This document shows, piece after piece, positions 28,624 through 56,120 of a stretch of DNA of 64,000 nt. The notes under the pieces were generated by a model that saw only the letters and a list, made by a program, of their open reading frames with translations, ran no database searches and had not been told where the DNA came from. The number at the start of each line of letters is the position of its first letter. Position 1 is the stretch's first letter. Source of the DNA: Agaricus subrufescens (taxonomy: Eukaryota; Basidiomycota; Agaricomycetes; Agaricales; Agaricaceae); assembly GCA_029945375.1 (NCBI GenBank), contig CM057063.1:2415894-2479893 (forward strand), written 5' to 3'. The translations under genes and the position numbers were made by a program.

Positions 28624-30793
28624 TTACATGTAATCAAGCATAGCAGATGTGTAGATTGTCACTTCACCACCCCTTTCTAGACAAATTCCTCTCATAGACC
28701 CATAAAATCGTCCCACAGACGTTATTATTGCCAATACTGTTGCAGACCCGTAGCCAAGTAAGACGTACTTTGGGTCTGTACAAGGCAGAATGTTCATATC
28801 TCCGAGCTTCTGTAAACGAATGAGTGGAATGTTGGAAGTATGTAGGTAAAATCATCATACAAGTGGTTCAGCAAGTCCTTGACATTTATCAACGAATTGG
28901 CTGTCCAAATTACTGACAGGCTCAACGCGAACAATCCCTGGAGAATCATTGGTAGCTTCATCCCACTAGACCTTGTTATTTAGTCGTACGCTGTTGATTC
29001 GGATACCGTACTTACTTTATACAGGACATTTATCAAAAAGAGGAAGCTGAAACTCAAAAGACTGTCGCAGTTTTGTGCCAGACAACGAAAATCAAAATCG
29101 CATAGCAACAACGCCTTGTTTGCTCCTGCTATCCACAGGTCACATAAGCCTAGCTGAGCCAAAAGTTTAAGCTTCTCAATTTTGTCGCCATTTGTGAGAT
29201 CAACTTGAGACCGTCGTAACACTCTAGGCCTGAGTATGATATGAGGATCTGATGAATGATTGAGAAAATGTAGCCAGGTCTGGTATGCTTGAAGACAAGA
29301 CTCAGATGCCGGAGTATAGAATTTGCCTGACAAATTGGGGTCTTCTAGAAAGCGACTGAAATGATTTGTGCGTGATTCTTCGTCGTGATATAACTTGGAT
29401 GAGACTATGCGGTAAAAGTATGGAAGAAATGTGTCAAATCTAAAACAACCCAAACTGAGCAGTTGAGCTGAATGCATGGGTGTGCGTTGCCAACGGATGA
29501 TACTGAAAGCCTTTTTCACATCAAGAAAAACATCCGGTGGAATACTGGAAAGTGCGCGGATGTAAAAGTGATCAAGAGCGCAGTACCGCCGCCCATCCGA
29601 AGGTGTAGGTGAATCAACCATATACCCCAGAAATGTCTCCAAGTGCGCCCGTGGTCCACCATCCCCCTCCCAATCGACGAATTGGATGATGACATCGGTA
29701 AATTCGAATACCCCCAAGACAATTCTGGCCAACTGTGTGATCTGTTCATTCGATGGCCATACTTCGTTGTCATTGAATGTCTGATAGTATCGATGGAGGC
29801 GAAGGTAACTAAATTTGTGATGCAGAACTAATTCTGCATCCGCCAGAGCATCGTTATAACAAACATGTGTTTGGAAGTAACGAGGTACTGATAAGTCAAC
29901 AAGGTCTCGGATGGGAAGTTTGGAATCAGGACCGACTGAAATGATCCAAAGTAATGGTGAGGAATGCGGTGGCGAGTCAAATTCACAGATTAAGCGAAAG
30001 AGGTCTTCTTGAACATGTGATTCATTGTAGGAAAAAACAACCACAGGGGGTGTCGTAATGTATTCAGGATAGCGAAGTTGGACTGCTTTCCACGGCTCGT
30101 GGATCAACTTTTTAAAGAGTGAGCGTGGTGGGTGGTCCCAAACCCCGGGATAGTTGATCAATATCTGGGTAAGAATGTGGCGGTATGGAGGATAGGCTGA
30201 TGCGAGTGCGGCGATAAGCTGGTTGATGTTGACATATCTGCCGTCATGTTGAAAATTGATAGATTGCCCGAATCGCTGAGCATCAGAACAAATACCGCCC
30301 ATGACAGCAGCCCTAGAATAATCTCCGGTAGACTCTATCGGCGGCCATGGCATCCATGGTTCGTTGATTAGATAAACGTTACTGTTTCTCTTGGAGTCAC
30401 AGAGCCATGAGATAACGTCTTGAGTGAGGGCTCTATGGATGTTCGAGGATGGACCATGGTGATCAATAGTCCAACGTTTAGCTAGAGAGAAATATAGTTT
30501 GCGAAATACTATCTCCACCGGTTGGTTATCTCGCACTGGTATATTGAGCATAGCACTCACGAGGGTGCCAATGTTCCCAGAATTCGGAGCTTTTGTGCGT
30601 GGTTTCCGAATCCCAATAACAATCATATCGATACTGATCCTCCGTTGGACCGCGATGATGCTTTGCAAAGATTTCGACAACTATCCATTCGAATATTAGG
30701 CTACCTGTCGCAGTAAAAAAAAACTCGGACCTTACCTTCTTGCATTGATACTCCCATGTCAAACGCATGGTCCAACTCCGGGTGCATCGTCAT
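28624..30793 (-). CDS. Family B4: NACHT-like pseudo-NTPase
   Basis: It starts MTMHPELDHAF and ends VTIYTSAMLDYM, with the five-exon layout of B1. The long exon is open. At the P-loop position it has STGDYSRAAVMGGIC, at Walker B PPVVVFSYNES, at the sensor strand LLWIISVGPDSK, and for the DPxRSG motif FLEDPNLSGKFY. Exon 4 starts WDEATNDSPG and contains RVEPVSNLDSQF. The acceptor of exon 3 lies in sequence that also reads through, so the exon 2-3 join is less certain here than in B1. It is convergent with A4. Confidence 0.75.
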
Positions 30794-35029: not shown

Positions 35030-37203
35030 TTACATATAGTCAAGCATAGCAGATGTGTAGATAGTGACTGGGACCTCTTCTGTAACGACCCTTGCGTTTC
35101 CCCTGACATTATGATATTGCTTCCGAGGCGTCATTACAGCCAGCACAGTCTTGCCTTCGTAGCCGAGTAAGACGTACTTCGCATTTGTAAGCGGCAGTTC
35201 AGTTTTACCCCTGAGGTTCTGTAGTTGAATGAGTGGGATTTCGGAGGTATGTAGGCAAAAACATCATACATATGGTTCAGCGAGGCCTTGGCATCTATCA
35301 ATGAATTGTCCATCCAGAGTACTCACAGGCTCAACACGAACAATCTTTGGTGAGTTTTCACAGTCGGCTTCGTCCCACTATACTTTTTTGTTTAGCTGTA
35401 CATTGTTAACTCAAATACCAGACTCACTCTATGCAGATCACTGATTAAATCGGCGAAAAATTCTATATGAATGCTATCACAGTTGTGTGCCAGGCAACGA
35501 AAATCAAAACCGCGTAACAATGCCTTATTCACTCGCGCCATTTGCATATCACATACACGTAATGGAGCCAGATGCCTGAGGTCCCCAAGTTGCTTGGCGG
35601 CTTCCGTCAGATCAGCTTGAGAAAATTGTAACACTGGAGGCTTCAATATGATACGGAGGTCCGATGAATGACTGAGAGAATTCAGCCAGGCTTGGTATAC
35701 TCGAAGACAGGATTCAGATTTAGGAGTATAGAATTGGCCTGACCGTTTCGAGTCTTCGATAAAGCGCCTGAAATGCTCTGTGCATGAGTTTTTGTTATGG
35801 TATCTCCGTAGTGAGACCAAGCGGTGAAAATATGGAAGGAATGTGCCGAATCTAAAGGAAAGCAAACTGAGCAACTGAACGAGTTTCAAGCGCCAGATTT
35901 CCCAATGAATGATACTGAAAGCCTCTTGCACATCAAGAAACACATCTGGAGGAATACTGGAGAGTGCACGAGTGTAGAAATGATCAAGAGCGCGATACCG
36001 TTGCTCATCCAAAGGTGGAGGGGAATCAACCATGTATCCCAGAAACGTCTCCAAGTGTGCCCGTGGTCCACCATCCCCCTCCCAGTCGATGAATTGGATG
36101 ATAACGTCGATGAACTCGAAGACCCCCAAAACAACCCTGGCTAACTGCGCTATCTGTTGATCCGATGGCCACACTTCGTTGTGACCAAACGTCTGATTGT
36201 ATTTATGCCGCAGGGCATCAAACTTGTGATTGAGAGTCAGTTCTGCATCCACCAAGCCTTCGTTATAGCAAACCTGGGGTTTTACATAACGAGGCGTGAA
36301 TGGCTCAACAAGGCCTTGCATGGGAAGTTTGAATTTGAACTTAGGACCAATTGAAATGATCCAAAGTAATGGCGAGGAATGTGATGATGAGCCAAATTCA
36401 CAGATTGAGTGAAAGAGGGCTTCGGCGTATGGTTTATGGCAGTAAACAACAACCACAGGGGGTGCAGTGATGTATACAGGATGGCGGTGTTGGACTGCTT
36501 TCCATGGCTCGTGTATCAACTTTTTGAACAGGGAGCGATGTGATAGGTCATAAATTCCAGGATAGTCAATCAAAATTTGGGTGAGAATGTGGCGGTATGA
36601 AGGATATGCTGCTGCAAGCTCAGCGCTAAGCTGTCCGATCTTGGAAATTCTTCCGTATGGTGGTCCGGCATAGAATGAATGCCCAAATCGCTGAGCATGA
36701 GAACAAATCTTGCCCATGGCAGCGGCCCTAGAATATCCTTTGTCATCCTCACCTGGCATCCATGACTCGTTAATGAGATAAATGTTACTTTTTCTCTTGG
36801 AATCACAGAGCCATGAGATGACATCTCGAGTGAGTGCTCTATGAATGCTCAAGGATGGGTCACTAATGTTAATAGACCTCCTTCCGACTTCGTAGACAGA
36901 CAAGCTGTGAAATACTGTTTCTATTAGTCACTGCAGCAATCTCACACTGGTATATTGCGCATAGCACTCACAAGGATGCCAATTGTCCCAGAATTTGGAG
37001 CTGTCGTGTGGGATATCCCCCTCCCATGAACTATAATCAATACTCTTCTCCTCCGGACCGCAATAGTATTTCGCAAAAATTTCAATCACTATGCATGGAA
37101 GTATTAGGCTAGAGGCTGCCGCCGCAAAAGAAATTCAGGCCTTACCTTCTTGCATCGATACTCCTGTGTCAAATGCATGTTCCAACTCTGGATGCATTAT
37201 CAT
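35030..37203 (-). CDS. Family B6: NACHT-like pseudo-NTPase
   Basis: It starts MIMHPELEHAFDTG and ends VTIYTSAMLDYM. The five exons follow the B1 model; the long exon is open for ~503 codons. Key segments are KGYSRAAAMGKICSHAQRF (the Tyr of GYS sits at the P-loop Lys), PPVVVVYCHKP, LLWIISIGPKFK, RALSSIPPDVFLD and RRFIEDSKRSGQFY. Exon 4 (WDEADCENSP, RVEPVSTLDGQF) and exon 5 (AKYVLLGYEGKTVLAVM) are intact. It is probably a live gene. Its A partner is lost. Confidence 0.75.
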
Positions 37204-38306: not shown

Positions 38307-39657
38307 TGTAGAGGTAGTAAATGAAACGTTAAGGGTGTAGCTAGTTTAATAAACACACCACACTTCACTAACTAGTACTCGTAAATGCAAGTTCGTGGGG
38401 AGATATTCAAGAGAAAAGGTTATTTCGAAGTTAAAGTTAATAAAGAAGGAATTCCAAATAAAAGAATCCTCAAACTTGTTCTAGCTACGAACGGGCCGAA
38501 GGGCTACGTGAACTTTGAACTCTAGCTACTGCGTTGTAGCCAAACTAAGTCGCACCAATGACGTTTAATGAGGAGCTGCGATGATCTAACTCGCCAGTTA
38601 TCCACCGACTCCGCAATTACAACTCAAGCTAGCACCGACTTACACCTCTGCTGGATATAAGCGTGCGATGGTAGCCTAGCTAGTCTCTTAAACTATCGTA
38701 TCACTGTCAACCTAGTGAATTCTCTGAACGGGTAACGTCTCCGACGTGAACTGCTGAACTAGTCTGAGTTTTTCTAGAAGCTCTCTCGCAAGCTAGTTGT
38801 TATTCACTTATTAGATCGCTACTTTACAAATCACGATCCTCAAAGCTAGACGTGGGCCGGAGATTGCTTGCCTTTCTTGACGCTAGCTAGAGGGTTTTTA
38901 TATTCACATTATGCGTACAAATATTAACAAAGTAGTTCTACTATTACTAAGGGTATCATATGGACTGGGCTGAGGGTACGGATAGATCCTATCCGCACCA
39001 ATCATCATGGTTGGAGCAGGTGCTGCCTGACGTCGCTTAGCACCTTACCCCTTCCAACTAACAATGGTAGCTAGTCCCCATTGTGCTACCCCTGGCATCC
39101 ACATGGGTACGTTGTCAGGTTTCAGAATGCCGAAGGCCGCTTGGCTGAACGTTCTATCCGTTCAGATTCGTTATCGATATGTGATGAGAATCCTAATCGG
39201 TGATATGTCCGGCTAGCTAGTGGGTCCACGATAATCTGATGGGATTTCAGCTCGCTAGTTTGCGTGATAGCCGTTCCCTGTCCGAGCCGATGTCTTCTGC
39301 GGGTCAACTGCTTCGAATAGTATATCTCGGGAGGAGTGATCTGTAGTTTCGCTAAGCATAAATCGACGTTTCGTCTAGGTAGTTAGAGCGTCATCGTCGT
39401 ATTTCGGCCTAATTAGTTGTCACCACCAGATCTAATGCCTCTACTCGGATCATTCCTGGTAGCTAGTGACTATATTTGCCTTACACGGTACAGTTTTCCC
39501 GTATAAGAGTCAAGGCGGATTTATCAGACTACGAGAGATACTATTGAGGTGTCGAGAGATGGTTAGGTTCTGACCCTGCACCTTGGCTAGTGGGTGTTAT
39601 ACCCTTGTAAATACTAGCTAGTACATTTCTACGCGTAAAACGGCGCGGGCCGTATCA
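38307..39657 (-). repeat. Gypsy 3' LTR (1351 bp)
   Basis: On the minus strand it starts TGATACGGCCCGC and ends CCTCTACA. Any promoter reading out of this LTR on the plus strand would face the antisense genes. It contains many CTAGCTAG-type words. Confidence 0.95.
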
Positions 39658-39670
39658 TCTCCCCCTCACT
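39658..39670 (-). promoter_or_regulatory. Gypsy polypurine tract
   Basis: AGTGAGGGGGAGA on the minus strand, directly before the 3' LTR. Confidence 0.75.
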
Positions 39671-40272
39671 ATAAGCTGACTGTCCCCAGTCATCGAACTG
39701 CTGGATATTTCTGAGTTTATCGGGGCTGTTGCCATGCTTCTGGTATACTGACTTGTGCCTACGCGAATCCCTCGGGTGCTTTTAGCCACACGTGTTGCTG
39801 ATGTTTTAGGAACTAGCGGTCTGCCTGTCATTTTAACTACGGGGTGCGGAATATTGGGTACACGTGGCGAATATTTTTAGATCTCGGACCTCGGGGTTAA
39901 CTAGTTAGTTCCCGGGTTGGCGGATCCTCCATCGCTTGATCGGACTCGCTATCTCCGCTTCTATTTTTATACCTTATCCTCCGTTCCTCGATAGCTACTG
40001 ATTCTTCTGTCTTTTTACTGTCTAGCTCACTTGTGTAGAGACAGAAACATCGCTGTAACTGGTATGGATGGACAAAACAGCTCGTCCGTGCTTTTTGTCT
40101 CGTCCGATTTTAATCGTGTTCCTGCGATGGCATAGGATTAGGTAGGTGGCGTTGCTTTATTAGGTACGGCGGTTACGGGCTCGGCCAACTACCAACTCGG
40201 CCGGGAACGCCTTATATAAACGTTTCCTTGGCTTGGTAGCGTGTCCTTTGTTTCTTGCCTCCTGCTTCTACG
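39671..40272 (+). promoter_or_regulatory. Upstream region of antisense gene 1
   Basis: No ORF of note. As the ~600 bp 5' of the ATG at 40273, it is the likely promoter region of the antisense gene. A CTTATATAAACG box (TATATAAA-like) lies near 40210, about 60 bp before the start codon. Confidence 0.4.
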
Positions 40273-42058
40273 ATGCCTGCTGCTAAACCCAAGCCTCGCA
40301 AGTCTACTGTCGCCTCGAAGCCTCAAACTGCTCCCAAATCTAAGTCTCGGCCCCATATCAAACAGGAAAAGGTCGCCGCTTCTTCTGCTACTACATCTGC
40401 CCCTCCGTCGGCGGCGCTTGTGGCTTTGAAGGCCTCTTTGACTGCAAAGACTGCTGCTCGCGTACTCGCACAAGCTCGCGCTGAGGAGACTGCCCTCGCC
40501 GAGAAACTGGCGAAGTTGCAAGCCGCTGAACCGGACCCTCTTCCCGTTGTTGAGGTAGAGGACCCCGTTGCTTCTGATCCGTGAGTCGATCCTTAGGATG
40601 ATACTAACTAGGGATGCTATTGATTGTTCGGTGTCTAGCGAGGATTCCGCCGATGAAACTGCCGAAGGAAGCGTTGACGAATTGGCTAACGATTCTGCTG
40701 AGCGCCCAGCCCGCGGCCAGAAGTGCCCTCGTTCTGTTTCGCCTGAGGTGGTTTCCGCCAAAGCTCCTCGCACCTCTGCGCGTCAGTCTGCTGCCGCTTC
40801 CAAAATCAAAGCTACTCCTCCCGCTTCCACGTCCAAAACAACCCTCCCTGCCAAAACGAAAGCTCCGAAGGCGGACCCTATCGAGCGTCGCAAAGGCGCC
40901 TTGCTTACTATCACTGAGAAGGCCAAATTCGATAAGAAACACCCCCCCCCGGTTCGTGGCAGTGGTATGTTTTGAAGACTTCCGTTTCTTTTTAAACTAG
41001 TTTCGCTGATCTGCTCTTTTACAGGCTTACGTCGTAGCGACGACTTAGTACGGGACTATGGTATTGTTGCTGGCACCCCCATCCTTGATCATACGGCTAG
41101 CCTCTTCACTATGGCTTCTGATATCTGCTCTCGTGCGGTCCCGGATGGCGGTTGTATCTCTTGTTTGTTGAATTTCAACATCTGTGATCATTCTTACGAT
41201 ACTCTTTCTGGTGAGACTCGGGCAGCGACGGCGGACGTGCGTGACGAACTCAGCGCTGCTATAGCTGGTGCTGCATGTTTAACTTGTCGCGCTAAAGGCC
41301 GTTCCCATTGCTCCCACAATAAGCCTGCGCCTGTGGTCCAATTCTTGGCCGAGGCCCTCCGTTCTCATGGTCTCTCTAGCGAGTCCTGTACGTCTTTTCT
41401 CTTTGGTCTTTTTCTGTACTGATTTTGTCGGTTTTACTTCTTTTCTAGCTCTTCGTGTTGCCGCGCGCAATCTTAGCGTTGGTTACACTCAATTGACGAT
41501 GCAACAGAAGCTTCTGTCATTGTCCCAAGCTCGTCTTCTGTCTGATTGTGCCTGTCACGCCGCGGAGATTTTGCAAGCTCGTGCAGTGCATGCCCACGAT
41601 CCCGATTATTTCGTCAACGCCCATCTCGTCAAGGATCGTTCGCAACTCGATACGCTTTTCGAGATTTGTGAACAATTCTTTCCGTCCCCTGGCGCCCCCG
41701 AAGCTTCTCATGAAGCCGCTCTTCGTCTCTATCAGGCTTACGGCGACATGATGAACTTTATTCATGAGACCGACGACTTGCACCGTGGCGGTCATTACTG
41801 GAGTAACCTCCCGGAGAGGCCCCCCCTTCATGCTAGTTTTCAACTCGTAATACGATGGCTCAGGAGATGCACTTTCGCCAGCCAACTGAGGCTTCTGAAG
41901 ATTCTGTCAATGACGAACTTGCTGGAGAGGAGGCCGCCGATGAAGATGCTTCTGAAGAGGAGGTGGCCGCTGAGGCCGTCGTCCCCATTACCTCCTCTTC
42001 TCGCTCCTCGCCGTCCAAAGGCAAAGGCAAGGCTGTGGTGGACGAGTCTGCCGTTTGA
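40273..42058 (+). CDS. Antisense accessory gene 1 of the gypsy element (Cys/His-containing protein, ~523 aa)
   Basis: The proposed exons are 40273-40580, 40639-40964, 41025-41387, 41449-41846 and 41882-42058. All phases agree. The first three introns (58-61 bp) have good donors (GTGAGT, GTATGT, GTACGT); the last (35 bp) is short and uncertain. Residues 1-210 are Lys/Ala/Pro-rich and low-complexity (MPAAKPKPRKS, SADETAEGSVDELAND). The middle has a Cys/His cluster: DGGCISCLLNFNICDH and, ~45 residues later, CLTCRAKGRSHCSH, which could bind zinc. A helical segment follows (MQQKLLSLSQARLL, RSQLDTLFEICEQFF), then an acidic tail ending in SKGKGKAVVDESAV. I do not recognise the family. The gene is on the strand opposite to gag-pol. 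Confidence 0.65.
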
Positions 42059-42879
42059 TCGTCGTCTGCTGGTGGGGTCTCCATTTCTGCCACGGTTTCA
42101 TTTTATTTTTCTGTCTTATCTTGCTGTTGTCTTGTTTTGAATCTGTACTTAACTCGGGTATCCACTCCCATCTCTGTCGTAGTTAAAGTACTGAATTCAA
42201 ATTTCTGTTGTTCCGTTCCTAGCTTGTGTTTCCGCAAACAGCTAGCTGGTGCCCTAATCGGATTCTTGATCCGTAACTACAACTTATCTCCTTCTGGTGG
42301 CAATTATTTCATCGCGTCACACCTTTGAGATTTCGCTCTGTTATTTGAAATTGGGCTATCTGTAATCCGATCGCTCCTCTTTTTAGAGTAGATCGGAAGC
42401 CGATCTCTTCCCAGCATTAGGCTGGTTGCTTTTCTGTCTTTTTGCGAGGTAAAGGTCTTGTATATTCCCTTGCTGCTTATGTAGTTTGGCTTTCGGCCTG
42501 GCCTGAAAAAACCTACGGAGGTTCTCTTTTACCCCTCCCCCCCACTATATGTTTAAGACGCCCTCGTCGAACACTTAGTGCATAAGTTGCCCTTGTGACA
42601 CCAGCTAGCACGTCCTTTACAAGTGTGCAGGTCTAAGCGAATGCCGCTTACATTTTTCCGAACTACCAAGTTACGTGCTCTGGAGCATGTGGTCGGTAGG
42701 TACCCGAGAAGTGAACAAGTCCCCCTACCCATGCTTTATTATCGCTCACTAGCTAGCAGGATGCCATGGGTCGAGTTCGCTTCGTATCTGATTTTGCTGG
42801 TCGAGGCGGCTATAAAAGAGGCCCTCCTCGGTTTATTTTCAGACATCGAACCGCCTACCCTACCCTCGATTCGCCCTAC
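42059..42879 (+). other. Region between the two antisense genes
   Basis: About 820 bp with no convincing coding sequence. It would hold the 3' end of gene 1 and the promoter of gene 2. A GGCTATAAAAG box occurs at ~42810, about 70 bp before the ATG at 42880. Confidence 0.4.
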
Positions 42880-44214
42880 ATGTCTTCGACCCCTTCCAAT
42901 GCCCCTACTGGCCCTTCTGGCGGTTTACGTCCCGATACGCAACTAGCTAAGACCGAGTTGGAAGATAATGTCACTAATTATCACCATCGCGTCAATCGCT
43001 ACGAGTCGAAACAAACCACTCGAGGTTCTGTAGGCAATGCCTTGTCCCTGGTGCCTGATTCTGCTGTGCGTTGTGGCTAGCTTGTCCTATTTTAGTTTTA
43101 TCTAACGATGCCATACAGACTGCCTTGCTACAGCAGCTCAAGTCCGATCCCGCAGCCGTTGACAAGCCCGAGATATTCAAATTGCTGGGCCGTACTAAAC
43201 GCTGTTTCGACCACTGGCAGGACAATTTCGAAAAGGATTACAAGTATCCCACTGTATACTCCAGGCTAGTTGAGATCCTGGAACAGAAGACTCGTACCAA
43301 GGGTCCCTCGTCCGGCAACGCCACCCCTGCATCCAATATCAGCACTAAAGGTTCCTCGGCTGGGTCTGAGGCGTCTAACGTCCCTCCTTCTAAAAAGGTA
43401 AACCTCTAGCTACTTGCTCTATTAGGTGCTGATGAGGATTCAGCGTCGTTATGCTAAGACTATTAAGTCCTCTGCCACTGTCGAGAGTAGCGATAGCGGT
43501 AGCGAAGAGGAGGTCGTTGTCGTCCCTCCTCATAATGCTCCTAAGCTCCCTGCTACATCTAACGTAAGCTGATCTTCTTCTTGTTTCTTAACTAGTGGTT
43601 AATATCGCCCCTAGGCCATGGAGACCGACGATGATGGGTCTATTCCTTCTCTCGTCCCCACTGCCCCAGGTAGTGAAGCCTCTTCCGCCAGAACTCGAAG
43701 CAACTCTTGTTCTGCTGCGGTGCGTGCAACTAACTACTTCTGATATCGCACCCATTCCTGATTAGTCCTCTCTATCTGGTCGTTTCAGGGGCCATCTCCT
43801 ATTCGTCCCCAGACGGTGCGTATTCCTTATGCCACTGTGCCCGGCTTGGATACTAGTAGCTGGACTTACAAACGCGCTGTACAGCTCCTTACTGGTATGG
43901 GTACTGCGGCATCCATAACTGCCCCGTTACATTCTGGTGCGGTATCTGCTACTAGCTAGTTTATGATCTGTACTGATGCATATCTATTAGGCAAAGGCCT
44001 TCTTAGTGTTGTACAAGGACTTGCAGCTTCCGCCCTCGAGGTCGACCATGCCGCCCTCAAGACCTCATCCAAGCACAACTTGGAGGCTAGATACTTGGTC
44101 ACTAATGGCCAATTAGTTTCGGCTGCTCAGGACTTGGAAGTTTCTGTACGCCGTTACGAGTTCCTCGCACAACAACAAGATACTTTGACGGGTATGCTTA
44201 ACAAGGGCACCTAA
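42880..44214 (+). CDS. Antisense accessory gene 2 of the gypsy element (353 aa)
   Basis: The six exons are 42880-43065, 43119-43397, 43444-43563, 43615-43719, 43789-43936 and 43991-44214. Every intron is GT-AG, 46-69 bp, and every join preserves the frame, ending at TAA. The N-terminus is Ser/Thr/Pro-rich (MSSTPSNAPTGPSGG). Exon 2 has a compact helical part (IFKLLGRTKRCFDHWQDNF, YPTVYSRLVEILEQ). Exons 3-4 are acidic/serine-rich and likely disordered. Exons 5-6 end in a helical region (YKRAVQLLTGMG, SVVQGLAASALEVDHAALK, RRYEFLAQQQDTL). No known domain is recognised. The stop lies ~126 bp from the pol stop, in convergent orientation. Confidence 0.75.
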
Positions 44215-44339
44215 CTAGCTAGCCTAGCCCCTGTCCCTTTTCAAGGTTACTGTAGTAGTTCTGTACTTCTGAGACCGTCCTGTCCTTTCCGTTGAAGATC
44301 GTGTCCTAGCTAGTGTTTGTTTCGCAATCTAGCTTTTTG

Positions 44340-47300
44340 TTAAGTGGTTGAGACTACTAGTTCGACGTCTTTTTCCTCATCTAAAGATCTCTCGAGCTCT
44401 TGCTTCTCTAACAACTCCAGTTCTTCCTCAGTAGCGTCCAAGAGGCCGCGAACTTTATCGCTGAATACGATTTTTCGCCTAGCTAGATAGGGCACTATCC
44501 TGTAGGCTGCCACCTTATTCTGCCATACTGAGCCGTCATATTCTGCCACAAGGTATGCTCCTCCTTTAAGCCTTTTGACGATAACCACTGGACCTAAGTA
44601 TCTAGTTTTCATTTTCCTGTCTGCTGACATTTCTATAGCCGAATTTCTTACTAGAGCCAAATCTCCTGGTCCTAGATTGAAATCTTTTATTTTATGTTTC
44701 ATATCTTCTTCCAGCTGCAAGGCCCGTCGAAGTTTTTCTTCACTAATTCTCTGTCGCATTTCTTCTACATGCGAGATGTGCTTAGCTAGCGCTTGCGCCC
44801 GTAGCCCTAGCAATTCTGCCGTGGATATCATCTTATTAGGGTAGCTAACTAGCCATGTTGCTTCTTCTATATCCAGCGGGATGGTTGGTTGGGCTCCAGT
44901 TATCATGAAATATGGTGAGCAACCTGTGCCTTTTCTGACTGTTATCCGGTCGGCCCAGGTTACGTGGTGTAATACCCAGAACCATCGTTTCAGATCTCCT
45001 CCGGTAGCCTTGTAAAGCATCTGCCGCAGATCCCAATGCGGTCTCTCAATTGTCCCATTAGCTTGTGAGTTATATGGGGAGATAGCTACTCCTTTAATCC
45101 CATATTTCTCCTCTAGCCATCGGACTGCTTTCCTAAATGGGGCACCGTTATCTGTGACAATTTTGACTAAGCTACCCCATCGGCATATTATGTCTTCGAA
45201 GAGCCAAGCCCCAATAGACTTGGCATCTTCTTTTCGTAATGCTCTGGCTTCCATCCATGATGAGAGCGCACACCTCCCATGCACTATATGTTTACAACCG
45301 TTGGAGGCTGTAGAGATATGTACCGTATCGGCATGCAGAATCTGAAATATCGATGGTGTATGGGTTACTACTGGCGGTAGTTCCATTGCCATCTTCTGTC
45401 TAGCTTGACACAGGTGGCAGGACTTGACGTACCAGGCTACGTCGCCTTCCATCTCTGGCCACCAGAATCTCTGCGATACTAGCTTGTTGGTTGCGTACAC
45501 CCCTCGATGTCCTAACTTGTCATGACACTGTTTCATAATGTACATGCGCTGATCGATTTCCACAACTAGCTGTGGGTTCCCGGTTCCTGATATCTTCCTA
45601 AATAGCCGTCCTTGATCGTCTATCCAGAAATGTGAGGCTGCCCTGATGAACCTCGCTTGTTCTGGGGACATTTTCGATGTATTGACATTACTAGGGTTAC
45701 TAGCTAGCCATTCTTTTATTCGAGTTAATTGTCTGTCCTGCATCCTTGCTTCGGAAGTACGCCTATCTTGATCATAAGGATCTTCCTCCGCATTAATTTC
45801 GTCTGAATCTTCATCTACTGTCGGCCCTTCAGGTTCTTGATACGTAGCTTGTTCCTCCATGTCTGCTACGTTATTCAGAAATATCCTCAACGGATCCGGA
45901 CAGTCTGCGGACTTAGCCATTTGTCGTCTCTGCTGTATTTCTGATTGTAAAACCTGGTTAGCTTCTGCTATTGTTAACTGTAGCAGACTATCTTCGTTCA
46001 TTATCTGCTGTATGAAGCCTGTTCTGTCATCAATTTCCTCAATGAAGTCCTCTAAAGGCAAGGGATCCTCATCATCCGGGTTTTCCTTTACTAGTTCGAA
46101 GTCTCCTTGGTCATCTTCTGACACATCGTCGAATCGCCGTTCTATGGGATCTCCCGGATACCATTTGCGTCTAGATAACCCATCGGGTCCAAAAGTCTTT
46201 CCTTTCTTATGGAGTAAAACTAATTGGAAATTAGTTCGGATATAATCCGCCCATCTGTTAACTGTTGCATTAGGTAACTTGCCCGGATTGTTTAACATTC
46301 CATGTAGATATTTGGCGTCCGTCTCGACGATGAGATTTCTGCTTCCTCTGAGCAAATAAACTTCTTCTTCTAGCGCCATTCTAAGTCCACACAACTCTCT
46401 CTTAGGTTGTGAATACCTCTGCTGCCTTTCATCCATCAAGATAGAGTTGAATTTCACATAATGGATAATCTTCGGATTTTCCTCATCCCTTTGATAGATG
46501 TAGTATCCCACCGCGCGCCAAGAGGAGTCAACGGCTAACACTATCGGCTGAGTACTTGGAAATTTAGGATTTCGGGTATGAAAGCAACTAGCTATGCTGT
46601 CTTTTAGTCTTTGCTGTGCTAGTTCCTGCTCTGGCCCCCATATAAACGGTACACCCTTCTTACAGATATTATATAAAGGTGCTGCCAAGGTCACAAAGTT
46701 AGGAATGTGATTTCGGCATTGTACTGCCGTCCCTAAGAATGCTCTGACATCTGTAGTGTCGGTACATTCCCCCCAACGGAGTATTTTCCCTATGGCATCC
46801 CTAGAAGGTTTCCTACCTTTATATGAGCACTCAAATCCTACGATCGTGATATAATCTGCACATATCGTAGTCTTGGGACCGGAGAAGGTCCCTCCTGAAT
46901 ATTTCATTCGTTGTAGGATCCTATTAACTGTCTGTAGATGCTCGTATACGAATCGTCTGATGCCATGGTTTTCTTTTAAAACCTCGTAGCTAGTAGTAGA
47001 CCCATCTAGTTCGTATCTGGTAGCGGGTCCTCGAATAGGCACGTCATCTATATAGGGCAACGTATACTGAGGGATCTCTTCTCTGAGTATAAAGGTCACG
47101 TCCTCATGAAAAATAGGAACCGAATTTGTCCATCCCATCGGCAAAGTTACTAGCCTGAGGGCTCCGAAGGGTGACTGAAACGTAGTGAGATCTCTGGATG
47201 AACTAGCTAGTTTACGGTTATCGTACCCGACCCACAGATCAAGTACTCCTGTACAGGCTCTCCCTGCAAAGTGCATAGCTAGTTCCTCAGTAGCTGGAGG

Positions 47301-48148
47301 AAGCCCTGAATGTGCGATCGTAACCCGGTTTAACGGTTCTAAACTGTGTACCAGACGGAGACTTTTTCCATCTTTCTTTAAGACACAAAACCATTTAGAC
47401 CTGTACGACGAGTTTGATGGTTCATAGACTCCTGTATCTATTTTGCGCTTTATTATACGACAGACTTCCTCGTATATGGCTGGGGGTATCCTAAACTGCT
47501 TTTCTACCCATGGGGTATGTGCCACTGTGGGTATTTCTACTGCTGGGAAGTACTTTTCCTTGAAGCTACCTCGTTCACTGTCTTCCCAGGCAAAACACTC
47601 ATTCTGCTGGGCGATCAGCCAGTGCATTAACTTTCGTTCTTCAGGCCATAAGAAATCTCCGCCGTGTGCTGTATCTAGTTTGTCCTTTCTTTCCTGAGTA
47701 TAGCTCCCCTTGGCTTCAAACTCGGGTGGGTTTACCATTAACTTGGGCATTCCTTCTAACGGATCCCCAGTTATATCTCGCTCTATGCGGAATTTCGCTG
47801 GTAGCTCTCCCAGGACTGGTTTTACTTTTAGCGCCACGGGTTTATATTTCTTAGCTAGCACCATGGTTGGTTTCCACTGTTTATCTTCTTCGACTGCGAC
47901 TACTTTATGGTATGGTTGGTAGTCTGTGGTGACGTTTTGCAGGTACTGACTGAAAATTGCCTTCTCAGGAAGGTCTACTTCTTCCAAGCTCTTCTGTAAA
48001 TATACTAGTTTTACTTCTTCATCGTCTAGCTTGTTGGATTGAATCGGCAAGACCTCACTGATATATGGCTGACTAGTGTCGGAGTCTTGACTGATGATGC
48101 AGGCCGCTTCTCCTTCAAGCCAGGGCTCGAATTCCTCGAAGCTACTTA
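44340..48148 (-). CDS. Gypsy Pol: reverse transcriptase, RNase H, integrase
   Basis: The open frame of ~1236 codons counted from 48050 begins upstream at the -1 shift site (48149-48155). The RT has LKKDGKSLRLVHSLEPLN and the active site LPYIDDVPI (YxDD, about residue 333 from 48050). RNase H has VLAVDSSWRAVGYYIY, KRELCGLRMAL and VETDAKYLHGML. The integrase has the zinc site HDKLGHRG...CHLCQARQK, catalytic residues in ILHADTV, IVTDNGAPF and NGTIERPHW, and a C-terminal GPF-like module (TRYLGPVVIVKRLKGGAYL). No chromodomain is seen after it. The C-terminus is acidic (LEEL-type coiled stretch). Confidence 0.93.
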
Positions 48149-49219
48149 AAAATTTACATCTACTGATTTGGGTAATTGTCCTCTCGCGTATGTTGACAAG
48201 GTAGCCTGCTCTTTAGTATTCGGATCTGTGATGTTTATATACTGAAGACCCTCCTGTGAGTTTACTATCTTGCTCTCGGTTATTACATCAAAAGGTCTGC
48301 CCAATAGTAATCTGTATGCTGCACCTTCCAGAATATGAACTTGCAAATGGACTGTGATGTTTCCGAAGGTGAAGGGCACATTTCTAGCTACTCCTTCTGT
48401 TCGCGATACAGCACCATTAGCACCCATCATATTAATACTGAGCTTGGGGTCCCAAGTTATCTTGCATTCGCTGGCAGCTTGTTTAGACATGGACACGATT
48501 TGTGATCCACTATCTAGTAACGCTTCTTCTTCACAAACACGATTTACTAAGGCTGGGATTACTCTGAGATGCTCCATACCTTTGGCGGCTACTGCTTCTG
48601 TACTAGCTACCGCGAAGATCTGTTTTTGTCGTTCGTTGGAATTCAACGTAGACAAATATTGCATGATCGGATCTTCGATACGCCAATTTTGCACGTATAT
48701 CCCCGCCGCGTTTCTAGCTAACTCGCTAGTGCGTTTAGGGATTTCCAGCGAAGCGGTATCTACTACATCCCAACCATTCTCCTGCGAGGAAGTACTGTTT
48801 AGTCCTGTTTCTGATCCTAACTCTGTTTCCACTTCTATGGTGTTGTTTCCTGTAGGGACTCTTCTCTTACTGATCACTTCTTTCCACATTTCTCTGAGTT
48901 TAGGTGCCATAGCTAGTAACTCCTGCTGTGTTAAGGTAACCTCCTTGCCGAATAGACGCGTCAAAACCTCTTTAATATCGACATTTTCCTCTACTTGAGT
49001 CTGATGTTTATAACTAGGAGGCTTTCTGGTCTCATTCATGTATCTGGCTGGTAAAGGTGGTACCTCCACTACTGGTCTCATAGCCGGCACTCTTCTATAA
49101 GGGAACACTCCTCTGTTGTCTGTAGTTCTATTTCTTTTCTCTGTATCGTCCTCGGTCGTCTGATCCTTCTGGAAGCGAACCTCTTTTCCAGAAGTCGACT
49201 TCTTCATTGGACTTTTCAA
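48146..49219 (-). CDS. Gypsy protease ORF (separate frame)
   Basis: The frame lies -1 relative to gag, overlaps its end, and has no ATG at its beginning (TTG at 49219), so it is probably made by frameshifting. The first ~200 residues are charged linker. The aspartic protease core is EEALLDSGSQIVSMS, with the flap-side strands and the late motif YRLLLGRPFDV (Ile/Leu-Leu-Gly-Arg), as in retropepsins. It would mature Gag and Pol. The frame ends at TAA 48146-48148 directly after the slippery heptamer that gives pol. Confidence 0.85.
   Translation of the reverse strand: MKSPMKKSTSGKEVRFQKDQTTEDDTEKRNRTTDNRGVFPYRRVPAMRPVVEVPPLPARYMNETRKPPSYKHQTQVEENVDIKEVLTRLFGKEVTLTQQELLAMAPKLREMWKEVISKRRVPTGNNTIEVETELGSETGLNSTSSQENGWDVVDTASLEIPKRTSELARNAAGIYVQNWRIEDPIMQYLSTLNSNERQKQIFAVASTEAVAAKGMEHLRVIPALVNRVCEEEALLDSGSQIVSMSKQAASECKITWDPKLSINMMGANGAVSRTEGVARNVPFTFGNITVHLQVHILEGAAYRLLLGRPFDVITESKIVNSQEGLQYINITDPNTKEQATLSTYARGQLPKSVDVNF
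48149..48155 (-). promoter_or_regulatory. Slippery heptamer for -1 frameshift, protease to pol
   Basis: On the minus strand A AAT TTT stands immediately before the protease stop TAA. This is a canonical X XXY YYZ heptamer. Slipping one base back continues as LSSFEEFEPWLEG and stays open into the pol frame. The same heptamer type is used in betaretroviral pro-pol shifts (established knowledge). Confidence 0.75.
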
Positions 49220-49225
49220 AAATCC
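49216..49225 (-). promoter_or_regulatory. Probable -1 frameshift site, gag to protease
   Basis: Gag ends GCG GAT TTT TGA. The protease frame is open one base back through GGA TTT TTG. G GAT TTT resembles a slippery heptamer but its first triplet is not a homotrimer, so it is weaker than the downstream site. Confidence 0.5.
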
Positions 49226-51192
49226 GCCTTCTTGGCGGCGGTCCTCTGAGTAAACAATTTCATCATTTGCTGCATGAGCTCATCTTCCTCAGCCGTTTCC
49301 GGTCTGGCTTGTGGCATCAGGTTTTGTACAAATGTTTCCATTGTTGCTAGACGACCTCTCATACGCTCCATTTCCAAAGCCTGTGCATTGGCTTTTTGTA
49401 CATCCTCTCTTTTCTGGATAGCTACAAGTGGGATAGGCCTGGAGGTACTCGAACTAGTTACTGAATACCCGGTATCTGGTTCGTCTTCTCCTTGGGGTAG
49501 CTCAGGCGCTCCAAAGATAAGAGCTGCCATGGAAGCGGGCAAGTATTTTTCAACACTTTTTCTAATCGGTACTCCTGGTTCTCTGGGTATTCCGGAGCCA
49601 TCTGCGAACCTTAGCTTCGACCCATCCTGTACTATTTTTCCGTCCTTCTCGTCCTGAGTTTTATAAGGACAGACTATCCATCGATGCCCTGTTTCATTAC
49701 AATAGAAACAATTCGAATTTGCGTTCGAATTGCCTTGGTAGCTGGTCTGATTTTGTGACGGATTACGGTTCTGCTGATGCGAGTTAGTTGTTCCAAGCTT
49801 AGCGATACTGGCTGTTATATTGGAACTTAACGAGTCTACATAAGCTTGCATGCTCTTCTGGCTCGTTACTAACGATTCTTGCATCTCTTTTCGTCCAATC
49901 ACTATGGAATCTTTTATCTGGCTAATATCTTGTTGCATAGCATCAATTTCCATTTGCACAGAGGAGGACGAACTGCTAGTTTCCTTTTTGATATTAGAAG
50001 TGTGTGATCGAGGGTTCCGTTCTCGGGCTGCGTCTATCGCATATACTCCTGTCAGGCTGTTCCCGTTAACTAGTTCGACCGCTTTTCTGATTACTTCTGA
50101 AATTGTATAAGGATCCTCGGATCTTCCTTGTCCTTGTAATGCTTGACGGGTTCCTTGTAGACTTAGTCTGGCCACAAGTGCATCCCTGAAAGCTGGACTT
50201 AGAGTATTCACGAATTCTTCTACTAGCTCCCTGTTGGAGATAATCGAAGGTGGCGCTTGGCACTTATTTGCTTGCGACTGGAACTGCCGACGGAAACTAG
50301 AGAAGTCCTCCTGATCGGTTATTCCTATCTGTCTGAACTTTCTACAAATTGCCTTTAACTTGGCCACTGACCCTTTTTCTTCGGTCACTAGTTCAGGGTA
50401 TTCCTCTTTTAATCGTTTTAGGAAGTTTGACCAATTCTGATTGGTGTATTCTTCAAAACTGATCCATTCGTCCCTGACGCTTTTGCTGACATAACTAACC
50501 ATCCATTTAAGTTTTTCAGCGTCATCGGTAATACTAGATACTTCGAACTGACGTTCTAGATGCCAGATGAAGTCTCCTAGCTTGTCTATTTCGCCGTCCC
50601 ATTTGGGTGCGCCTTGGGAAAAAGGTGCTGGCATATGTGGTGAAGGCATGTTTTGTGCTGAGTTCGAGTTTGATGATGCTGATGGTGCGGGTACTCTTTG
50701 ATTAAGAGTAGGGCTACTAGCTCGGCTGTTTGGTAAACTAGTTTGCGCTGTATTAGGTAAAGGGGACACGGGCGAATTAGGCAGAGAGTGATAGACTGTG
50801 TTGTCTGCGGATTTAAACTGCCCTGGTATATCCAACTGTGATGAACTTTCGTCGAACACTGCTGGTTGATAAAATGGATTCGGTTCTGTGTCTGTGGGTG
50901 AAGAGATAACCGGTTCACTAAATCTGACCGACCTAGATCCGCTAGCTAGTTCTTCTGATTGGGCGCTCGTTTGGCTTTCGCTAGTTTCGCGAGCTTTTTG
51001 TTTCCTAGCTTTACGCTTTTGGAATAAGATCTGATCAGGATCGTCTAGTCTAGGAACTAGTTCGTTTGACTGAGAATTGTTAGTCTGTCTCGCTCTTGGA
51101 TTGAAACGCGACAGAGTTGGGCTGGTATTGTTTAACTCTATGAAGCTTGGCTTCCTAGAGTGCTGAGGTTGGTTTTTCTGTTGCTCAGGCAA
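49216..51192 (-). CDS. Gypsy Gag (658 aa)
   Basis: The N-terminal ~190 residues are Ser/Pro/Asn-rich. A capsid-type helical domain follows (KWDGEIDKLGDFIWHLERQF, DEWISFEEYTNQNWSNFLKR, FRRQFQSQANKC, LVEEFVNTLSPAFRDAL). A zinc knuckle CFYCNETGHRWIVC (C-x2-C-x4-H-x4-C) lies near residue 490. It would assemble the particle and bind genomic RNA. The start codon is the first in-frame ATG after the leader. Confidence 0.9.
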   Translation of the reverse strand: MPEQQKNQPQHSRKPSFIELNNTSPTLSRFNPRARQTNNSQSNELVPRLDDPDQILFQKRKARKQKARETSESQTSAQSEELASGSRSVRFSEPVISSPTDTEPNPFYQPAVFDESSSQLDIPGQFKSADNTVYHSLPNSPVSPLPNTAQTSLPNSRASSPTLNQRVPAPSASSNSNSAQNMPSPHMPAPFSQGAPKWDGEIDKLGDFIWHLERQFEVSSITDDAEKLKWMVSYVSKSVRDEWISFEEYTNQNWSNFLKRLKEEYPELVTEEKGSVAKLKAICRKFRQIGITDQEDFSSFRRQFQSQANKCQAPPSIISNRELVEEFVNTLSPAFRDALVARLSLQGTRQALQGQGRSEDPYTISEVIRKAVELVNGNSLTGVYAIDAARERNPRSHTSNIKKETSSSSSSVQMEIDAMQQDISQIKDSIVIGRKEMQESLVTSQKSMQAYVDSLSSNITASIAKLGTTNSHQQNRNPSQNQTSYQGNSNANSNCFYCNETGHRWIVCPYKTQDEKDGKIVQDGSKLRFADGSGIPREPGVPIRKSVEKYLPASMAALIFGAPELPQGEDEPDTGYSVTSSSTSRPIPLVAIQKREDVQKANAQALEMERMRGRLATMETFVQNLMPQARPETAEEDELMQQMMKLFTQRTAAKKADF

Positions 51193-51256: not shown

Positions 51257-51274
51257 CCCTCGCGGTGGGCTCCA
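51257..51274 (-). promoter_or_regulatory. Gypsy primer binding site
   Basis: TGGAGCCCACCGCGAGGG lies 2 nt inside the 5' LTR. TGG pairs with the CCA end of a tRNA. The tRNA identity cannot be set from the window. Confidence 0.6.
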
Positions 51275-51276
51275 GA

Positions 51277-52627
51277 TGTAGAGGTAGTAAATGAAACGTT
51301 AAGGGTGTAGCTAGTTTAATAAACACACCACACTTCACTAACTAGTACTCGTAAATGCAAGTTCGTGGGGAGATATTCAAGAGAAAAGGTTATTTCGAAG
51401 TTAAAGTTAATAAAGAAGGAATTCCAAATAAAAGAATCCTCAAACTTGTTCTAGCTACGAACGGGCCGAAGGGCTACGTGAACTTTGAACTCTAGCTACT
51501 GCGTTGTAGCCAAACTAAGTCGCACCAATGACGTTTAATGAGGAGCTGCGATGATCTAACTCGCCAGTTATCCACCGACTCCGCAATTACAACTCAAGCT
51601 AGCACCGACTTACACCTCTGCTGGATATAAGCGTGCGATGGTAGCCTAGCTAGTCTCTTAAACTATCGTATCACTGTCAACCTAGTGAATTCTCTGAACG
51701 GGTAACGTCTCCGACGTGAACTGCTGAACTAGTCTGAGTTTTTCTAGAAGCTCTCTCGCAAGCTAGTTGTTATTCACTTATTAGATCGCTACTTTACAAA
51801 TCACGATCCTCAAAGCTAGACGTGGGCCGGAGATTGCTTGCCTTTCTTGACGCTAGCTAGAGGGTTTTTATATTCACATTATGCGTACAAATATTAACAA
51901 AGTAGTTCTACTATTACTAAGGGTATCATATGGACTGGGCTGAGGGTACGGATAGATCCTATCCGCACCAATCATCATGGTTGGAGCAGGTGCTGCCTGA
52001 CGTCGCTTAGCACCTTACCCCTTCCAACTAACAATGGTAGCTAGTCCCCATTGTGCTACCCCTGGCATCCACATGGGTACGTTGTCAGGTTTCAGAATGC
52101 CGAAGGCCGCTTGGCTGAACGTTCTATCCGTTCAGATTCGTTATCGATATGTGATGAGAATCCTAATCGGTGATATGTCCGGCTAGCTAGTGGGTCCACG
52201 ATAATCTGATGGGATTTCAGCTCGCTAGTTTGCGTGATAGCCGTTCCCTGTCCGAGCCGATGTCTTCTGCGGGTCAACTGCTTCGAATAGTATATCTCGG
52301 GAGGAGTGATCTGTAGTTTCGCTAAGCATAAATCGACGTTTCGTCTAGGTAGTTAGAGCGTCATCGTCGTATTTCGGCCTAATTAGTTGTCACCACCAGA
52401 TCTAATGCCTCTACTCGGATCATTCCTGGTAGCTAGTGACTATATTTGCCTTACACGGTACAGTTTTCCCGTATAAGAGTCAAGGCGGATTTATCAGACT
52501 ACGAGAGATACTATTGAGGTGTCGAGAGATGGTTAGGTTCTGACCCTGCACCTTGGCTAGTGGGTGTTATACCCTTGTAAATACTAGCTAGTACATTTCT
52601 ACGCGTAAAACGGCGCGGGCCGTATCA
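51277..52627 (-). repeat. Gypsy 5' LTR (1351 bp)
   Basis: Same length and, as read, same sequence as 38307-39657. Confidence 0.95.
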
Positions 52628-53955: not shown

Positions 53956-56120
53956 TTATATATAGGCAAGCATACCAGATGTGTAGATGGTTACTCCACC
54001 CAACGTTTCCACACCGATCCCTTCTATTGTCTCATAATATTGTTCGCGAGACGCCATTACTGCCAACACAGTTGCGGCCCCGTAGCCAAGTAGGACATAC
54101 TTCGGGACTTTACGATGTTGTTTGCTTTCGTCTCCAAGCTCCTGTAATGGAATGAGTGAAATGTTGAAAATATGTGTATAGAAATACCATACAAATGGTT
54201 CAGCGAGACCTTGACATTTATGAATGAATTGTCTGTCCAAGATACTTACGGCTTCAACGCGAACGATCCCCGGAAAGTTGTCAACTTTACTCCCCTAAGG
54301 CCTCGTTATCTTGATGTACATCACAGACTTGAATATCATACTCACTTCATACAAGTCATTTATCAGAGTTACAAATCGTTGAAGAACTATATTGTCACAG
54401 TTATGTGCCAGGCAACGAAAATCAAAATGGTGTAGCAGCAATTTGAATGTTGTGTCTGCCCGTGCCATTTGACATAAACGTGACAGAGCCAGATATCTGA
54501 GCCTCGAAATTTGCGAGGCACAATGGGTTAGATCAGCTTGAGACAGTCGTAACATCGGGGGCTGGAGTATGATATGGAGGTCTGATGAATGATTGCTAAG
54601 AAAGTGTAGCCAAGCTCGATATGCTTGAAGACGGGATTCCGATTTTGGAGTAAAGAATTTACCCGATCGGTTAGGGTCTTCTACAAAACGTCTGAAATGA
54701 TTTGTGCATGAGTTTTTGTTGTGGTATCCCATGTGAAATGGTGAGACCAGGCGATAAAAGTATTGAAGGGATGTGGCAAATTTGAAGGATTCCAAACCAA
54801 GTAGTTGAACGAGATCTAGATGTGAGTGTTGCCAACGGATGATACTGAAAGCCTTTTTTACGTCGAAAAGAACATCCTGTGGAATGCTGGAGAGTGCGTG
54901 GGTATAGAAGTGATCAAGAGCGCGATACCGTTGCTCCCCCGAAGGTGTAGGCGAATCAACCATATACCCCAAAAATGCCTCCAAGTGCGCCTGTGGTCCA
55001 CCATCTTCTTCCCAATCAATGAATTGGATGATGACGTCGATGAATTCAAACACCCCCAAAACAATTCTGGCCAACTTTTTTGTCTGTTCATCCGACGGCC
55101 ATACTTTGTTATCATCAAATGTCTGATCGTATTCCTGGCGAAGGGCGCTAAATTTGTGATGAAGAATTAATTCTGCATCCGTGAGGGCCTCGTTATAACA
55201 AACAAGTGGTGTGGTGTAACGAGGTGTGAATGGCTCAACAACGGCTTGGATGGGAAGTTTGAACTTTGGACTGACTGAAATGATCCAAAGTAATGGCGAG
55301 GAATGTGATAATGAGCCAAATTCATAGATTAAACGAAAGAAGTCTTCATCGTATGGTCTATGGAAGGAAAGAACGACCACAGGGGGTGCAGTACTGTATC
55401 TGGGGTGGATGTACTGGATTGCTTTCCACGGATCGTGAATTAACGTTTTGAACAGAGAGTGCCCTGGTAAGCGACGAATCCCGGGATAATTGATTAAAAT
55501 ACGGGTGAGAAGGTGTCGGTATGGAGGATATGCCGCTGCAAGTTCTGCGCTAAGCCATCCAATGTTATATGCCGTATCATCGGAATTTCGGATATGAAAC
55601 ACATTTCCGAATCGTTGTGCATCAGAACAAATCTTGGCTATGGCAGCAGCCCTAGAATACCCATTGACAGACTTTCTTGTCCTCCATGGTTCAGCAATGA
55701 GGTAAACGCTACTCTTTCTCCCAGAGTCACATAGCCACGAGATAATATCTCGAGCAAGTGCTCTGTGGATGCTCAAGAAAGGTTCACGTACTTCGATACG
55801 CTCAATTCTAGCTTCAAAGACAGATAGCTGGCGAAATACTATCTTTACTAGTTGACAGCTTTATACCGGTATATCGAGCATGTCACTCACAAGGATAATG
55901 ATTATCCCAGAATTCGGAAATGTGATGTCTTCTATTCTCCCATGAATCATGGTATTGAACTTTCTCCTCTATCGGACCACAGTGGTGCTCAGCAAAGATT
56001 TCGATCACTATCCGTTGGGGTGTTACTACGTTACCATTCACGGTAAATTGTTCAGGCCTTACCTTCTCGCATTGATACTCCTGTGCCAAAAGCGTGCTCT
56101 AAGTCTGGGTGCATCGACAT
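53956..56120 (-). CDS. Family B7: NACHT-like pseudo-NTPase
   Basis: It starts MSMHPDLEHAFGTG and ends VTIYTSGMLAYI. The long exon is open (493 codons from its first ATG). At the P-loop position it has VNGYSRAAAIAKIC, at Walker B PPVVVLSFHRP, at the sensor strand LLWIISVSPKFK, and for the DPxRSG motif RRFVEDPNRSGKFF. Exon 4 reads GSKVDNFPG and VEAVSILDRQF. At the position of intron 4 this copy has GTATGG where the others have GTATGA, so it could also read straight through. It is probably a live gene, next to the broken A7. Confidence 0.75.

Follow-up and report, generated by a model that had tools for sequence, protein, structure and literature searches.

Retroelements are expected to lose introns. 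How, then, do two genes with eight introns between them come to ride in one? The question is raised by a stretch of DNA from the basidiomycete Agaricus subrufescens (contig CM057063.1 of assembly GCA_029945375.1, positions 2,415,894 to 2,479,893), the whole 64,000 nucleotides (nt) of which we call the window. The minus strand of the window contains a 14.3-kilobase Ty3/gypsy element bounded by two long terminal repeats (LTRs). Between pol and the 3' LTR of this element, the plus strand, antisense to gag-pol, carries gene 1 and gene 2. We consider it likely that these genes are an antisense two-gene module inherited within a clade of gypsy elements, with TATA promoters of its own and spliced messages for nuclear accessory proteins. 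The products of the pair are probably helpers of the element.

An intron-bearing gene pair antisense to gag-pol

An initial annotation of this DNA had proposed two multi-exon genes between pol and the 3' LTR. Their exon structures were confirmed, and they recur in two further families of elements, B and C, the window's own family being A. Gene 1 has four exons, with its ATG at 40273, and three introns of 58-61 nt. Gene 2 has six exons and 353 codons from the ATG at 42880 to the stop at 44214; its five introns (46-69 nt), described in the annotation as consensus introns, are indeed GT..AG throughout, and the frame is open. The eight introns of the pair, all GT..AG, measure 46-69 nt, and every one contains a loose match to a YTNAY branch site. 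The fifth donor of gene 2 is GTGCGG, at 43937, and gene 2 and pol converge tail to tail, pol ending at 44340. The features of the pair are as follows.

40213..40219, plus strand: TATA box TATATAAA, 60 nt before the gene 1 ATG
40273..40580, plus strand: gene 1 exon 1, with ATG at 40273
40639..40964, plus strand: gene 1 exon 2; 3' boundary in phase 1, matched in B and C to within one codon
41025..41387, plus strand: gene 1 exon 3, with Cys and His residues invariant in three families; 3' boundary in phase 1, same alignment column in B and C
41449..42058, plus strand: gene 1 exon 4; reading frame intact in 17/20 young copies, shifted by one base in that of the window
42811..42817, plus strand: TATA box TATAAAAG, 69 nt before the gene 2 ATG
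42880..43065, plus strand: gene 2 exon 1
43119..43397, plus strand: gene 2 exon 2, ending at PPSKK
43444..43563, plus strand: gene 2 exon 3
43615..43719, plus strand: gene 2 exon 4
43789..43936, plus strand: gene 2 exon 5, ending in phase 1
43991..44214, plus strand: gene 2 exon 6 with the stop codon and a conserved C-terminal region

The two TATA boxes support the presence of separate antisense promoters for genes 1 and 2. Across 39658-44340, just two sites on the plus strand match TATAWAW, both of them at the gene starts; the minus strand has two as well. In a first-order Markov resampling (n=3000), the two upstream windows were matched in 0.5% and 0.8% of trials, and together in 0/3000. A scan for bacterial-style promoters and terminators stayed at chance level, and an Rfam search gave no match.

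The surrounding element has the LTRs, protease, RNase H and integrase zinc domain of a Ty3/gypsy LTR retrotransposon; these three domains pass the Pfam cut-offs, the gag match lies below its cut-off, and Pfam returned no separate reverse transcriptase model for the element. We take the order of the domains to favor the Ty3/gypsy name as well. The LTRs are identical over their full 1351 nt and have TG..CA termini, and TCGC stands on the outer flank of each, the element ends being read from the sequence. The 13-mer of the candidate primer binding site occurs at 35 places in the genome.

38307..39657, minus strand: 3' LTR, 1351 nt, TG..CA, identical to 51277-52627
39658..39670, minus strand: candidate polypurine tract adjoining the 3' LTR, read from the sequence
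44340..48050, minus strand: pol (RNase H, integrase zinc domain), from Pfam
48146..49219, minus strand: aspartic protease open reading frame (ORF), from Pfam
49216..51192, minus strand: gag ORF; Ty3 capsid match weak, under the family cut-off
51259..51274, minus strand: candidate primer binding site by the 5' LTR, read from the sequence
51277..52627, minus strand: 5' LTR, identical to 38307-39657

The orientation of the genes offers an answer to the question of intron survival. The genomic RNA is the complementary strand and does not have the splice signals of these genes, so that copying never removes the antisense introns. The annotation had made this argument, and the copies of the element bear it out: all eight introns are kept in 20/20 young copies, although the first is 4 nt shorter in one of them (L027).

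Conservation of the pair within and between families

The genome searched comprises 44.65 megabases in 44 contigs, the window lying on contig C7. A DNA search of it with the antisense region gave 24 matches, counted as 23 loci. Twenty of these loci, the window included, are 97-100% identical and are the young copies; the other three (L028, L029 and L030) are 89-95% identical and decayed. The annotation had proposed a check of other copies for retained introns and open frames, and both are found. In 20/20 young copies gene 2 has an open frame and every splice dinucleotide, and gene 1 is open in 17/20, the exceptions being the window copy, L026 and L027. The intron check was partial for L029, which is interrupted, and for L030, which is without gene 1.

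It had also been argued that the genes are maintained because the element is young. Maintenance stands, on the strength of introns shared across families and a ratio of nonsynonymous to synonymous substitution rates (dN/dS) of 0.13 for gene 2 in family B. The argument from youth is weak, and gene 1 is broken in the window itself. Youth is insufficient as proof of maintenance because the coding variants in the young copies number 7 nonsynonymous to 5 synonymous, with two single-base indels (19 copies; L027, L028, L029 and L030 were left out of the count). The young copies are too recent to reveal selection.

L027 has many small indels that look like local assembly noise. L028, on contig C21, is a mosaic in which a stretch corresponding to about 41850-42990 of the window is nearly young-copy sequence and gene 2 beyond it is clearly diverged, which suggests recombination or template switching between subfamilies. 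Old copies (L028 and L030, and L032 of family B) have an excess of C-to-T and G-to-A changes, counted for L032 and judged by eye for L028 and, from arginine losses, for L030, and their decay looks like that left by methylation or by a process resembling repeat-induced point mutation. Estimates of dN/dS from L028, L029 and L030 were set aside as of little use for selection, these copies being decayed and stop-bearing.

More distant relatives are more informative. A genome search with the spliced proteins gave weak matches, at 27-33% identity, to both genes adjoining each other elsewhere. At L031, gene 2 is followed directly, on the other strand, by a pol 67% identical to that of the window; at L034 and L035, pol is 71% identical and the layout is as in L031. 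Loci L031-L033 represent family B, and L034, reached by the pol search, represents family C. Both families carry the gene pair in the position and order seen in the window. Between the window and families B and C, pol is 69-72% identical and the antisense proteins are 21-30% identical; among all the families, identity ranges over 69-78% in pol, 21-44% in gene 1 and 30-49% in gene 2.

The predicted introns recur in these families. All five gene 2 introns are phase-matched in A, B and C (0,0,0,0,1). Introns 2, 4 and 5 each share one alignment column in the three families, and the positions of intron 3 agree to within one codon. In family B, intron 1 has two good acceptors, the choice between which does not affect phase; with the upstream acceptor it shares a column with A and C, and otherwise it lies beside a gap (the dN/dS sets used the acceptor that puts it in the gap). 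In gene 1, two introns, both in phase 1, are common to the three families, the one sharing an alignment column and the other placed to within one codon. One further gene 1 intron is common to B and C and is not in A. For the intron that comes first in gene 1 of A, close to the N-terminus, no counterpart was found in B and C, whose N-termini are incompletely covered. As judged from the alignments, the recurrence of introns and frames in two other families at 21-30% identity is beyond chance. That the pair is maintained therefore follows from its conservation in other families, not from the young copies. Seven intron positions thus seem to predate the divergence of families with 69% identity in pol, and introns in a retrotransposon become datable.

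The comparison of L031 with L033, both open for gene 2, demonstrates purifying selection on that gene at the level of its codons. Their dN/dS is 0.13. Of 1341 exon sites 54 differ, distributed 8/6/40 over the three codon positions (binomial P about 1e-9), and the introns differ at 29/271 sites, roughly the silent-site level. Long-term selection is thereby seen on an antisense accessory protein of a class that occurs in plants, fungi and retroviruses. Between B and C, dN/dS is about 0.28 for gene 1 and about 0.22 for gene 2; dS is near saturation there, with third-position differences the commonest, and is saturated in comparisons against family A. No gene 1 pair is as clean as L031 and L033 are for gene 2. 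In L031 gene 1 is not open (11 nonsynonymous and 15 synonymous differences), and the comparison with the decayed L032, with its excess of C-to-T and G-to-A changes, has 103 nonsynonymous and 114 synonymous differences.

These patterns bear on the idea that the antisense transcripts act as RNA, through double-stranded RNA or natural antisense control, and that the frames are incidental. Antisense control of retroelements is known (PMC7264820, in the part available), and both genes lie wholly within the element. However, an excess of third-position changes, the dN/dS of 0.13, and frames and intron phases conserved across families would hardly be expected of transcripts that act as RNA, and we give this explanation very little credence.

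A third line of evidence comes from the spread of the pair through the genome. The pol DNA search scored 40 of 55 candidates and the gene 2 protein search 94 of 112, and the counts that follow are among the matches listed. Outside family A there are 23 gene 1 loci and 22 gene 2 loci, and 20 of those 23 gene 1 loci have gene 2 beside them on the same strand, in the same order. The pol search found 23 family-A pol loci, all at loci of the antisense region, and 15 others, each of which (15/15) has gene 2 antisense just beyond pol. Most copies and the related families thus have the pair. A Pfam search of the genome for the zinc domain of gypsy integrases listed 150 of 260 candidates. By eye, 28 of these 150 loci bear the module (20 of family A and 8 of B or C) and 122 do not. 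Two of the 122, C2:3576963 and C26:18305, have a family-B-like score, their frames being short. The module would thus seem confined to a single clade of gypsy elements in this genome.

The same counts speak against host genes captured antisense and carried as passengers, one of the origins the annotation had offered. An intron-rich structure is host-like, and five unpaired loci outside family A (three of gene 1, two of gene 2) could be host copies. On the other hand, nearly all gene 1 loci outside family A are paired and every non-A pol locus among the matches listed has gene 2, and three families with diverged pol genes share the module, so that any capture must be old. Searches of the fungus's own genome with the proteins of A, B and C gave mostly paired loci, many beside gypsy pol, and capture was rejected on that ground. 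We regard passenger host genes as quite improbable, and a recent capture is not favored.

What the two proteins might do

Some features of the proteins hint at function. In gene 1, two CxxC pairs and an HC are invariant in three families, and these residues may bind metal. The Zn2Cys6 zinc cluster has six cysteines and a short loop between two halves. We rejected this assignment for gene 1: 37 residues run from C46 to C84 in the window family, the third cysteine is lost in family C, and Pfam gives no match. No gene 1 protein of A, B or C, and not gene 2 of A, matched a Pfam family; gene 2 of B and C had two marginal Pfam matches (E 0.04 and 0.055), in one member each. Five PDB profile matches to gene 1 (best E 0.024) were taken as chance, and gene 2 had no PDB profile match. 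The gene 2 protein is basic, and PP.KKR, RSNS and the C-terminal region are kept across families; in B and C its N-terminus is rich in RG. PP.KKR resembles a nuclear signal, and the RG-rich N-terminus may bind RNA. No membrane-like stretch was found in the six proteins, the best 19-residue hydropathy being 0.98-1.21 (the gene 1 N-termini of B and C are incomplete), and the idea of an envelope-like extra ORF was dropped, the genes being antisense and without a transmembrane segment.

On our reading, each gene would have an internal TATA promoter of its own, and its spliced message would be translated into an accessory protein of the nucleus. Most likely, the pair would then influence expression of the element from within the nucleus, or counter silencing by the host, with the HBZ protein of a human retrovirus (discussed below) as a model.

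Several observations weigh against this view. Neither gene has a Pfam or PDB match that points to a function, the nuclear role is read from the resemblance of motifs, and single-exon, single-sequence folds of gene 1 were helical and poor (mean predicted local distance difference test scores of 55.7 and 53.7). Transcription of the genes, their proteins and the location of these proteins are predictions. The window copy of gene 1 is frameshifted by one base in its last exon, and the variants in the young copies, as given above, are nearly even. TATA boxes near the ATG were found in family A only, the scan of B and C being without the sequence upstream of gene 1. The splice sites of B and C were selected, on the model of the window genes, from several GT..AG pairs that leave the frame open, and gene 2 intron 4 of family C (L034), GT-AG in A and B, fits only as GC-AG, with donor GCAAGT; the sole GT-AG alternative in the scan lies elsewhere. 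The search for relatives covered the host's own genome and viral contigs, and the viral contigs contained no relative of gene 1 or gene 2.

Within a nuclear function there is more than one candidate role. The proteins could be silencing suppressors that block host RNA interference or chromatin silencing and evolve fast in an arms race. The antisense proteins have diverged far faster than pol (21-30% versus 69-72% identity, window versus B and C), and an overlap of sense and antisense transcripts could give double-stranded RNA, in which case the element would profit from a suppressor. However, neither protein resembles a known family in Pfam, and loose constraint is also compatible with fast divergence. 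We hold this role to be possible, and less probable than not. A fuller version, in which coding on both strands is served by a clade-inherited, fast-evolving nuclear suppressor or regulator pair and the conserved introns would mark the spliced messenger RNAs as exportable and shorten their complementarity to the genomic RNA, strikes us as doubtful.

The proteins might instead aid integration or the nuclear import of the pre-integration complex. The conserved PP.KKR motif of gene 2 would fit such a role, and a nuclear role has been suggested for plant antisense ORFs, in the portion of PMC7264820 available. Yet the integrase loci away from the module, as counted by eye, indicate that it is not generally needed for integration, and we think this role unlikely.

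Relation to known antisense genes, and other features of the window

Retrotransposons of plants and of the fungus Botrytis are already known to carry additional antisense genes in the interval from pol to the 3' LTR (PMC7264820, PMC11963269, PMC8365987 and PMC4227169, each available in part). The element Boty, or BcGypsy1, of Botrytis cinerea carries the antisense gene brtn (PMC8365987, PMC4227169, PMC7264820), which is listed among genes between pol and the 3' LTR (PMC7264820). It is similar in being an additional antisense gene in a fungal retrotransposon. One gene is named there; the element of the window has two, with eight introns between them, and the pair is conserved across families; the comparison is between descriptions only.

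The plant aORF-3R genes include gene23 of Grande, RIRE2, TRP28 of Retand, and PvRetro13 (PMC7264820, PMC11963269). Both genes of the window lie where aORF-3R genes lie, between pol and the 3' LTR on the opposite strand. The plant genes also resemble them in occurring in most copies and in several species, and that of Grande has its own promoter and a nuclear product. They are described as ORFs, however; the word 'intron' occurs 0 times in the accessible text of PMC11963269, and the parts of these sources at hand describe no multi-intron pair with shared positions. The TRP28 domain was not matched by the antisense proteins in Pfam.

In human T-cell leukemia virus type 1, HBZ is a nuclear protein made from an antisense message, and it lowers viral expression (PMC10186651, in part). 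HBZ and its relatives called APH share with the fungal pair the antisense position and spliced transcripts, and HBZ is a nuclear regulator of viral expression; the fungal genes are known from sequence alone. According to the same portion of that source, the viral genes differ in having a promoter in the 3' LTR, a bZIP domain in HBZ, and one antisense gene per virus. An HBZ-like factor was rejected, since Pfam gave no bZIP match. Another mobile element with an antisense gene that bears a spliceosomal intron is a group I intron in ribosomal DNA, whose antisense homing endonuclease gene is expressed and spliced (PMC9548176, in part); that case involves another class of element and a known enzyme.

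A search of the top-ranked titles and abstracts, with subscription papers (Zhao et al. 2011, Virology, on brtn among them) outside its scope, found no multi-intron antisense gene pair in a fungal gypsy element. The extra ORFs of rotifer elements (PMC5408684, in part) had no bearing on antisense genes. Within the literature searched, we did not find described an eight-intron pair that combines intron positions common to diverged families with measured purifying selection. We have established the position, orientation and predicted exon-intron structure of the pair and its presence in three families from the genome assembly, and the 20 very similar copies in one genome make expression, splicing and function directly testable.

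The window has other repeated sequences. At 18439-23928 on the plus strand, near the gypsy element, is a Ty1/copia polyprotein of 1829 amino acids, in which gag, integrase and reverse transcriptase domains are recognized. Diverged direct copies of a frame of about 300-570 amino acids, all on the minus strand, are 60-97% identical by stretch, and five of the seven were scanned with Pfam and had no match.

6912-8429, 13853-15319, 24465-25982, 28980-30680, 35392-36903, 54295-55776 and 62801-63748, minus strand: copies of the repeated frame

This frame may belong to a tandem gene family or to a repeated element of another kind, and the gypsy element lies between two of its copies.

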